Part shown: positions 7,302 to 15,834 of the stretch, piece after piece
Layout: each line of letters opens with the position of its first letter
How positions within the stretch are numbered: the first letter of the stretch is position 1
Made by a program: the position numbers and the translations under genes
From: a virus
IMG/VR virus record: IMGVR_UViG_3300045135_000973
Coordinates: 1 to 22,806 of that record
Length of the DNA stretch: 22,806 nucleotides
Reading direction: 5' to 3' (one strand)
The notes under the pieces: model-generated
Database searches by the model: none
Seen by the model: the letters and a program-made list of their open reading frames with translations, nothing else
Told to the model about the DNA's origin: nothing

Positions 7302-7320
7302 AAAATAATGTAAAAAAGTG

Positions 7321-7349
7321 TTGACGAGTAAACTAACATATCGTATATT
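7321..7349 (+). promoter_or_regulatory. Sigma70-type promoter
   Basis: TTGACG (7321-7326) and TATATT (7344-7349) are 17 bases apart in an A/T-rich gap between the helicase gene and ATG 7387. The upstream A-run, GTG and TTGACGAGTA nearly repeat the 3294 promoter. It should drive the small genes from 7387 through 8182 and the RNA region up to the terminator at 8380. Confidence 0.75.
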
Positions 7350-7386
7350 TAATACTCCAAAACAACTAAACAACAGGAAAACAGAG

Positions 7387-7737
7387 ATGAAAATTACTTA
7401 CGCATACATTGAAGAAAATCTTTTCAACTTAGGTCAGTCTGCTGATGGTCACGCTATCGATGGCTTGCGCTACACAGTCGTTGTTAAGACTGCAAATGGT
7501 CGCCGCTTTGCTCACAGCTTTGATGTGCAGCAGTCGCTTGAGTGGGATGAAGATGTTCACACAATCGTTCAGTGGGATGACGCTGACATGGAAAAGCTAG
7601 ATGCTTTGAAAGAGCGTGTAAACAAAGCCGGCTCAATCAATCCTGATAACGGTCACTGGGTAGAGATTGAGCCACAATACGGCACTAAAGCGTGGCTAGA
7701 TTACGAAGTATCAGAAAATTCGTTTTACGCAGCATAA
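7387..7737 (+). CDS. Hypothetical acidic phage protein
   Basis: This is a 116-residue protein. It begins MKITYAYIEENLFNLGQS and has YTVVVKTANGRRFAHSFD and an acidic, tryptophan-containing C-terminal half (WDDADMEKLDAL, WVEIEPQYGTKAWLDYE). No family is recognised; the mix suggests a small alpha/beta fold. ATG 7387 is used because the in-frame upstream extension would run through the promoter; ACAGG (7374-7378) is a modest SD. It is the first gene of the transcript from the 7321 promoter. Confidence 0.65.
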   Translation: MKITYAYIEENLFNLGQSADGHAIDGLRYTVVVKTANGRRFAHSFDVQQSLEWDEDVHTIVQWDDADMEKLDALKERVNKAGSINPDNGHWVEIEPQYGTKAWLDYEVSENSFYAA

Positions 7738-7778: not shown

Positions 7779-8090
7779 ATGAGCATTAACACTTTCTACC
7801 GCGAGCAGCTAGTTGAGCGTATGTACGATGACGGCACATACGAGGAGAAGAAAGCCGAAGCATTTGACTTCATCATGGACAACAAAGACCGCAAGGATTG
7901 GATTAACGATGCGCTACTGACTAAGTTGGCTGAGGATTACGACCTAACCCACGCTGTACGCAAGTTCACCGATGAGCAGAAGCTAGAAGTATTCTCTACC
8001 TTGCTTGAGTTTGCCGGTGAGCTGCTTGATGACGAAACTGACAACTTGGCGCACAGTGAGATTGTGTGCATGGCAGAGGACGGTGAGTGA
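7779..8090 (+). CDS. Hypothetical acidic phage protein
   Basis: This is a 103-residue, mostly helical, strongly acidic protein (MSINTFYREQLVERMYDDG, WINDALLTKLAEDYDL, ELLDDETDNLAHSE). No family is recognised. AGGGGTC at good spacing supports ATG 7779. The stop overlaps the ATG of a tiny membrane ORF (TGATG), so the two are probably translated together. The high acidity recalls DNA-mimic or antirestriction small proteins, but no specific motif supports that. Confidence 0.6.
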   Translation: MSINTFYREQLVERMYDDGTYEEKKAEAFDFIMDNKDRKDWINDALLTKLAEDYDLTHAVRKFTDEQKLEVFSTLLEFAGELLDDETDNLAHSEIVCMAEDGE

Positions 8091-8182
8091 TGGCAGTTCG
8101 TTTCGTAAAATACTTTATCTCAGGCATGACAATGGCTTTAGTGGCAATCATATTTGCTGAAGCATTTGTCCGAGCTTTCTGA
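8090..8182 (+). CDS. 30-residue single-pass membrane peptide
   Basis: ATG 8090 lies in a TGATG overlap with the preceding stop, and GGTGAG upstream can serve as SD. The product begins MAVRFVKYF and continues as a hydrophobic helix (ISGMTMALVAIIFAEAFV) ending RAF: basic residues before the helix, then one membrane segment. It resembles the membrane segment encoded near 110-187 in size, position in the operon and the VRF start. It could be a small membrane regulator or superinfection factor. The ORF is short, so chance cannot be excluded, but coupling and composition support it. Confidence 0.5.
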   Translation: MAVRFVKYFISGMTMALVAIIFAEAFVRAF

Positions 8183-8379
8183 TACAGTAGAAAAATACAG
8201 GTATAGGTAAATCTAGCCGAGATGCGTACAGGAGTCGCCAGACCCTAACAAGCATCGCTGAGTTGTAGTTGGCGCTTTAACTCCTACGGCACTATCTGTA
8301 ATCTGGCACTTATCAGAGTCATCTGATGTTTTCCTAAGGGTGGATTTAACGGTCGCTCCAACTACCGTAAATTCAATTA
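8183..8379 (+). other. Non-coding region rich in inverted repeats, upstream of terminase
   Basis: About 200 bases carry no convincing ORF on either strand. Visible pairings are GATGC (8221-8225) with GCATC (8252-8256); GGAGTCGCCA (8231-8240) with TGGCG (8270-8274) plus ACTCC (8280-8284), across a CTTTA bulge; GTAGTTGG (8265-8272) with CCAACTAC (8358-8365); and ATCAGA (8312-8317) with TCTGAT (8322-8327) around GTCA, followed by GTTTT. The first two pairings interleave as in a pseudoknot, and the second and third are mutually exclusive. The position directly before terS also suits a cos/pac packaging site. No tRNA fold was found. Confidence 0.5.
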
Positions 8380-8409
8380 AGCCTCTGGCATTGCTAGGGG
8401 CTTTTTTTT
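8380..8409 (+). terminator. Intrinsic terminator before the packaging genes
   Basis: AGCCTCTGGC (8380-8389), loop ATT, GCTAGGGGCT (8393-8402) forms a ten-pair stem with two G-T pairs, followed by T8 (8402-8409). It separates the early/RNA transcript from the late terminase-head operon. Confidence 0.85.
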
Positions 8410-8460
8410 GCTACAATATTGCCGTATAAACCTATTTAGGTTGTTTTTAGGGTATTGGTC

Positions 8461-8811
8461 ATGTCTGAGCAGCACATCAACGAAAGACGCGATTTAACGG
8501 AACAAGAGTATGCTGACGTTCAAGAGTTAGCTGCCTACATGACACAGGTTCAAATCGCTGATTATCTTGGGATTACGGACAGGTGCTTCCGAAAAATTAT
8601 GGAGCGCGACCCAAAAGCACGTTCCGCGTATAAAAAGGGCAGGGCTTTAGCACACAAGAAAGTCGCCAATTCTCTGATAGCACAAGCCAATGACGGCAAC
8701 ACCGCAGCAGCCATCTTCTACCTGAAAACTCAGCAGGGATGGAAAGAGGAAACTCAAGCGACTATCGACTTGCCACAGCTCAAGATAGTGTCACCGAATG
8801 CAACTGAGTGA
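8461..8811 (+). CDS. terS: Terminase small subunit
   Basis: This is a 116-residue protein. The N-terminal half has a helix-turn-helix (QVQIADYLGITDRCFRKIMERDP) for recognising the packaging site. The C-terminal half has the TerS signature AHKKVANSLIAQANDGNTAAAIFYLKTQQGWKEE, an oligomerisation helix pair ending in the typical FYLK-x-QGWKE. ATG 8461 is preferred to an in-frame TTG at 8455; AGGG (8449-8452) is the SD. It overlaps terL by 14 bases. It would bind cos or pac DNA and deliver it to TerL. The inverted-repeat region just upstream is a natural candidate site. Confidence 0.85.
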   Translation: MSEQHINERRDLTEQEYADVQELAAYMTQVQIADYLGITDRCFRKIMERDPKARSAYKKGRALAHKKVANSLIAQANDGNTAAAIFYLKTQQGWKEETQATIDLPQLKIVSPNATE

Positions 8812-15743: not shown

Positions 15744-15750
15744 TAGGTGG

Positions 15751-15804
15751 GGCGGTCTAGGGTAGCACCCGAAAAGCAGGACTTCCGTGACCTGTCTGAC
15801 CGCC
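15751..15804 (+). ncRNA. Three-way-junction-like RNA element between tube and chaperone genes
   Basis: A seven-pair closing stem, GGCGGTC (15751-15757) with GACCGCC (15798-15804), encloses two hairpins: GGGT-AGC-ACCC (15760-15770) and CAGG (15777-15780) pairing with CCTG (15791-15794) around a ten-base loop. It lies in the 91-base gap between the tail-tube stop and the chaperone start. It has no U-tract, so it is not an ordinary terminator. It may stabilise the abundant tube mRNA 3' end or control chaperone translation. The pairing is seen; the function is inferred. Confidence 0.5.
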
Positions 15805-15834
15805 GCTTAATCACGGGCTTAACGGAGAGCAAAT

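Follow-up and report, generated by a model that had tools for sequence, protein, structure and literature searches.

Positions 8310–8409 of the DNA analyzed here, a linear virus record of 22,806 bases (IMG/VR IMGVR_UViG_3300045135_000973, hereafter the window), carry on the plus strand a conserved module of three hairpins that five independent sequences share, each time upstream of an identified or presumed terS. The module consists of a first hairpin (SL1), a linker (GUUUUCCUAAGGG), a second hairpin (SL2) and an intrinsic terminator, and is recognized both by its alignment with contig L208 and by a covariance model. We propose, with about an even chance of being right, that the early operon ends here in a phage small RNA of about 100 nt that acts by antisense pairing, and we class it as a new family within a known kind, the phage small RNAs.

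All genes used from the window are on the plus strand. The early half encodes a Cro/C1-type helix-turn-helix protein, NinB, NinG, a DNA methylase, replication proteins and a helicase, while the late half holds the terminase, portal, scaffold, capsid and tail genes; a gene resembling phosphoadenosine phosphosulfate reductase was also seen in the early region (1873–2739). An initial annotation had singled out positions 8183–8379 as a non-coding block rich in inverted repeats, situated between the early genes and terS, and this placement holds: the block separates a 30-codon open reading frame (ATG at 8090, stop at 8182) from terS (ATG at 8461), and a coding reading of it gives short reading frames only. 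The first late gene, terS (8461–8811, plus strand), matches PHROG 309 and begins 51 nt past the T-run of the terminator. Upstream, the plus-strand early gene at 7779–8090 has no assigned function, its product matching nothing in Pfam, PHROGs or NCBIfam; resembling proteins were recognized by eye in contigs L209 and L217. A search with the adjacent gene (7318–7737) gave no relative. The 30-codon frame of the window (8090–8182) would encode a hydrophobic peptide, MAVRFVKYFISGMTMALVAIIFAEAFVRAF, and stops directly before the block.

Searches with the whole block found no relatives in phages by blastn, nor any by blastn and nhmmer among 80 TerL relatives of the window. A protein search with the product of 7779–8090 returned one contig, L208, in which a 79% identical protein accompanies the module: 3′ of that gene lies a stretch 84% identical to window positions 8319–8410 (79 of 94 columns, E 8e-20), with an SL1 that begins 13 nt after the stop codon of the preceding gene. 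A pattern built from the shared loop and the T-run, run against IMG/VR, yielded 11 stretches, five of which carry the module: L209, L212, L217, L214 and, as L210, the L208 contig again were obtained in this way. GTCGCTCCAACTAC and TTTTT were fixed in the pattern, which forces these letters to be identical in L209, L212 and L214; GTCGCTCCAACTAC is also identical in L208, which was found by the protein search instead. The remaining matches (L211, L213, L215, L216, L218 and L219) were judged by eye to be chance. As L210 is the L208 contig and L212 is 99.9% identical to L217 over 5381 letters, there are four independent relatives, that is, five independent sequences including the window.

A covariance model (R1) built from the four other sequences, without the window, recovered the window with 83 bits (E 9.3e-18). 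Up to E 1, the search gave 12 matches, seven of which are the module (five independent); the other five, set aside, scored 14.1–17.3 bits, and four of these are opposite-strand matches in module contigs. No credible copy was found by R1 in the 80 TerL relatives, which are closer to the window in TerL, where the single match up to E 1 (16.2 bits) was taken as chance, and none appeared at E 1e-4 in 369 genomes of one class, a search run without a positive control. Two R1 matches in cellular genomes (30.4 and 28.1 bits) rest mainly on their terminators and were rejected. Exact pieces of the sequence were equally unproductive: GGAGTCGCCAGACCC occurred in 32 stretches and GTAGTTGGNG..CNCCAACTAC in 27, both about the number estimated for chance, with nhmmer around them giving nothing for the former and only E 5 for the latter, and the best blastn piece around such matches (27 letters, E 6e-4) came from L025, which contains the searched letters.

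Each folded alone, the five sequences give the same three hairpins, with fold z-scores of −4.1 (window), −1.7 (L209), −4.1 (L210), −4.2 (L212) and −2.7 (L214); the weakest of these folds, that of L209, was matched by 13 of 200 shuffles. SL1 (8312–8327, plus strand) is the small ATCAGA/TCTGAT hairpin of the initial annotation (8312–8317 with 8322–8327, loop gtca), here confirmed and found to be conserved, its arms being ACAAGA/TCTTGT or CAAGA/TCTTG in the other four sequences; two-sided changes affect three of its seven pairs, one of them giving a U-G pair. The lower stem of SL2 (8342–8374, plus strand) is built from five different complementary sequences (GGATTTA/TAAATTC, CATAC/GTATG, TCAC/GTGA, TACATAG/CTATGTA and TCGT/ACGA, arms chosen by hand from the single-sequence folds), and its apical part, GGTCGCTCCAACTACC (8351–8366), is unchanged. 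The plus-strand terminator (8379–8409, eight T's; z −4.9 for 8376–8410) is as strong as had been announced and is likewise conserved. Between SL1 and SL2, the plus-strand linker GTTTTCCTAAGGG (8328–8340) is identical in all five carriers, as is most of the terminator, and these letters lay outside the search pattern apart from five T's.

Compensatory changes, the check suggested in the initial annotation, are thus present in the stems of 8310–8409 across the four relatives. Two-sided changes were counted at 7 of 25 pairs, against a shuffle mean of 3.3 and with none of 500 shuffles reaching 7, in an alignment that was fitted to the model and so leans towards it; sliding the partners by 1–3 columns left 1–4 such pairs. 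Overall, 91.2% of the alignment cells are paired (50 of 50 in the terminator), and some cells count as unpaired because the register of the lower SL2 stem differs between sequences. The idea of a structured RNA stands for 8310–8409, with the same three hairpins and covarying stems in five sequences, while the pairings proposed for the upstream stretch, 8183–8309, are not supported.

That plus-strand stretch carries the long-range arms on which a more elaborate proposal had been based, namely a pseudoknot with two exclusive states spanning 8183–8379. All the repeats named for it exist in the sequence: GATGC/GCATC (8221–8225 and 8252–8256), which would cross GGAGTCGCCA (8231–8240) paired with TGGCG and ACTCC (8270–8274 and 8280–8284), and GTAGTTGG/CCAACTAC (8265–8272 and 8358–8365), the alternative pairing. 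In addition, 8265–8275 is complementary to the SL2 loop (8355–8365) at 10 of 11 positions, a match reached in none of 300 shuffles of the upstream stretch, for a pair that was picked after being seen; this complementarity is particular to the window, its upstream arm being absent from the other carriers. Both the crossing pairings and the two-state switch depend on arms in 8183–8309 that have no counterpart in L208/L210, L209, L212/L217 or L214, where SL1 begins 5–13 nt past the stop of the preceding called gene, so that the two partners of these pairings are not conserved together. The fold z of the block without its terminator (8183–8375) is only −1.3, from an energy model that cannot score pseudoknots, and that of its minus strand is +0.3; with the terminator, it drops to −2.7 (8183–8410) or −3.7 (a separate run on 8183–8412). 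Of 227 windows of 193 nt scanned along the contig, three overlap the block, with z from −1.5 to −2.7; ten others were lower than the best of these. The longest exact inverted repeat of the block measures 8 bp, and at least 8 bp is attained in 87 of 500 dinucleotide shuffles. Most inverted repeats of the block are not the functional signal, and we consider the bistable pseudoknot very improbable.

The position of the module had also raised the possibility of a cos or pac packaging site recognized by TerS. From the end of the module, the next called gene is 40–58 nt away in all five contigs; terS profiles recognize it in the window, L208 and L217, and it is taken as terS in L209 and L214 by position and by eye. 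This constant position would suit a packaging site, but the same module precedes different terminases, TerL of the window and of L217 being 30% identical (BLASTP) and their TerS showing no BLASTP similarity, both with weak matches to PHROG 309. Since the terminases differ in this way, the module is not tied to one packaging system, and it is not inherited together with its TerS in these two phages. Furthermore, the changes keep base pairing rather than the DNA sequence, the contigs continue through the module, and terS follows the preceding reading frame almost without a gap (35 nt or less, by mechanical ORF calls) in 66 of the 69 scorable cases among the 80 TerL relatives that lack the module. 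A packaging site is in our judgment extremely unlikely.

A boundary of transcription is a less remote explanation. The module could simply combine an early terminator with a late promoter whose −35 box lies inside that terminator, SL1 and SL2 protecting or shaping the 3′ end of the early mRNA. A strong terminator stands at the same spot in five of five sequences, between the early genes and terS, and a possible late promoter was noticed by eye on the plus strand of the window (8391–8417), composed of TTGCTA (8391–8396, within the terminator), 15 nt and TACAAT (8412–8417, directly after the T-run), hexamers absent from the list of a promoter scan that allowed spacers of 16–18. Promoter-like letters, again recognized by eye, occupy the matching place 3′ of the terminator in the other four carriers. 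This explanation does not account for the invariant 13-nt linker or the covarying SL1 and SL2, and we regard it as unlikely while granting it a real chance. Independently, a DNA stretch comprising TGTTAGTATTCACT and its neighbors, about 1–35 nt past the T-run, is common to L209, L210, L214 and L217 and not found in the window; lying between terminator and terS, it is possibly the late promoter of the four relatives. A minus-strand start site, AGGAAAACAAGATG, was rejected, the frames after it being short or differing between carriers by eye.

In phage lambda, the late promoter pR′, the 6S RNA and the terminator tR′ form a late leader, and the module resembles 6S in place and length. By analogy, a promoter 5′ of SL1 would produce a short terminated RNA, with an antiterminator allowing transcription into terS. 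The sequence TGTAAwCT does precede SL1 in three of the five sequences, but the promoter scan lists nothing just upstream of SL1, the nearest site (8126–8154, 9 of 12 matches) being weak and the total of three sites comparing with 5.3 in shuffles. Nor was a Q-like protein recognized among the window proteins scanned, several of whose genes have no assigned function. We consider such a late leader unlikely.

Under the antisense reading that we favor, the 3′ arm of SL1 and the linker would form a seed, TCATCT(TG or GATG)TTTTCCT, the linker contributing its proposed anti-Shine-Dalgarno part. Read in reverse complement, this seed gives AGGAAAACAAGATGA, a start codon with its Shine-Dalgarno sequence. 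Its mean pairing energy with the translation starts of its own contig was reached by none of 300 shuffled seeds in L209 (10 starts) and L217 (8 starts), and by fractions of 0.013 in L210 (4 starts), 0.03 in L214 (18 starts) and 0.053 in the window (34 starts). These values come from seeds shuffled letter by letter rather than by dinucleotide, and the test largely measures the mutual resemblance of Shine-Dalgarno/AUG sequences; the starts, like those of the single-site scans, of the AGGAAA[AG]C search and of the comparison between early and late genes, as well as the distances between module and terS, were provided by a simple purpose-written gene caller, and the 18 starts of L214 include a candidate gene that overlaps another reading frame and was added by hand after the match was seen.

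In three carriers, a gene upstream of the RNA is among the starts complementary to the seed. The strongest site belongs to the gene two before terS in L209, at −24.3 kcal/mol, a value that no other site attains (2 of 1833 windows). In the window, the candidate target is AGGAAAACAGAGATGA (7375–7390, plus strand), comprising the Shine-Dalgarno sequence and start of the early gene 7387–7737, the second called gene upstream of the RNA; its predicted duplex with the seed has −18.8 kcal/mol and ranks only fourth, 13 of 7573 windows, in four sites, reaching this energy. The hand-added candidate gene upstream in L214 gives −16.8 kcal/mol, also at a fourth-best site (12 of 4225 windows, four sites). 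The motif AGGAAA[AG]C, sought on the plus strands of the five contigs, lies at most 11 nt before an ATG at five of six sites, and at four of these five the ATG is a called or candidate gene start; no such site occurs in L217 or in the short L210 contig. Candidates for pairing at a start in the RNA's own operon were seen in the window, L209 and, with the hand-added gene, L214, with none of that type in L217; L210 is truncated. Two extensions found no support: a general early-gene shut-off, early and late starts not differing as targets (43 versus 31, p 0.26), and a role of the SL2 loop as a second anti-Shine-Dalgarno seed, which gave no target signal (P of mean 0.14–0.69). From these comparisons, the presence of an anti-start segment is supported, and a specific target for it only moderately so.

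No Rfam 15 family reaches its gathering score in 8183–8410. Below threshold, RF02837 (anti-hemB; gathering 49.5 bits) scores 20.3 bits in the window and 17.6 in L208, and RF02278 (Betaproteobacteria toxic small RNA; gathering 50 bits) 16.5 bits in the window; the others are PyrR (21.2 bits), Qrr (17.7), Spot 42 (16.3), ClpQY promoter (14) and NsiR1 (13.8). The available text of PMC5688073 presents RF02278 members as double-hairpin RNAs with CU-rich unpaired stretches. The two families align with the module through hairpins and a U-tailed terminator, giving the weak matches of 16.5 and 20.3 bits, but the module stays far below their gathering scores and differs by its three hairpins and by another linker and loop. 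In the literature on phage-encoded and UTR-derived small RNAs, covered mostly through papers readable without subscription, we did not find this RNA described.

Antisense RNAs of phages may be encoded opposite their targets, as is the case for P22 sar. According to the accessible part of a review (PMC12197685), P22 sar and lambda OOP are phage antisense RNAs, and lambda 6S is Hfq-dependent and was not explored for its function. The proposed action of the module, an antisense block of the translation or stability of a phage mRNA, resembles that of sar and OOP as presented there, but these are encoded opposite their target whereas the module RNA would pair at a distance with a target from the same strand. 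With 6S/tR′ it would share a short RNA ending in a terminator where the late genes begin, but no Q-type gene or pR′-like promoter was recognized in the window. The closest parallel may come from OppZ and CarZ of Vibrio cholerae, given in the accessible text of PMC7398697 as 3′-UTR-derived autoregulatory sRNAs. Like them, the module lies at the 3′ end of an operon, deduced from gene order, and has a Rho-independent terminator, and a translation block of a gene of the same operon is proposed for it. Unlike them, it belongs to a phage; maturation by RNase E, a role of Hfq and repression would be putative in its case, and the comparison concerns arrangement. By analogy with this portion of PMC7398697, the 3′-end RNA could limit its own operon.

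Other structured RNAs were observed in the window and its TerL relatives. At 15750–15817 (plus strand), between the major tail gene and the tail chaperone gene, the window carries an int-alpA RNA (RF02996; 40 bits, above the gathering score of 35.8), whose P3 loop CCGTG (15785–15789) can pair with CACGG (15812–15816), fitting the Rfam consensus loop and 3′ end. Five TerL relatives (L057, L058, L107, L044 and L049) were read by eye and showed no copy of the block; because these stretches were read, a different conserved RNA was noticed, which is present in 13 of the 80 TerL relatives, about 0.5–2.3 kb upstream of terS (L044, L045, L049, L051, L058, L066, L067, L072, L081, L083, L106, L107 and L108). 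Its layout is that of int-alpA, comprising P1, P2, P3 and a P3 loop pairing downstream, with stem changes that preserve pairing by eye (for example GGTTC/GAACC, AGTCC/GGACT and GATCC/GGATC), and short hydrophobic reading frames were seen by eye 3′ of it in L044, L049 and L058. Six further loci were set aside as chance. A scan of 11 of the 13 carrier loci gave no int-alpA match at the gathering score or at E 0.5. A strict pattern for this RNA finds 54 stretches in IMG/VR, and a looser descriptor also matches by chance (15 in shuffled loci). It is possibly a divergent int-alpA branch.

For the module RNA itself, we infer expression, processing and target. The small RNA would end at the terminator that divides early from late genes and would accumulate either as its own transcript or by being cut from the 3′ end of the early mRNA. 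The 3′ arm of SL1 and the linker (TCATCT..GTTTTCCT) may then pair with the Shine-Dalgarno and AUG region of phage mRNAs and block ribosome binding, the candidate target being the mRNA of the gene at 7387, probably of the same operon; host mRNAs could perhaps be blocked by seed pairing as well, and the SL2 loop might provide a second contact with some partner. A broader and more speculative proposal, which we think is probably not correct, is that of a mobile phage cassette whose early operon ends in its own regulatory RNA, pairing with ribosome-binding sites, that of a gene of its own operon first, thereby acting as a self-limiting early-to-late timer and being kept as a unit while the surrounding terminases are exchanged. 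The structure of the RNA is backed by comparative evidence, and the RNA combines a constant location with a candidate pairing segment; its phages come from metagenomes only. Should the pairing prove true, these phages would use the 3′ end of their own operon for feedback, and the module would offer a handle on the passage from early to late expression in such phages.
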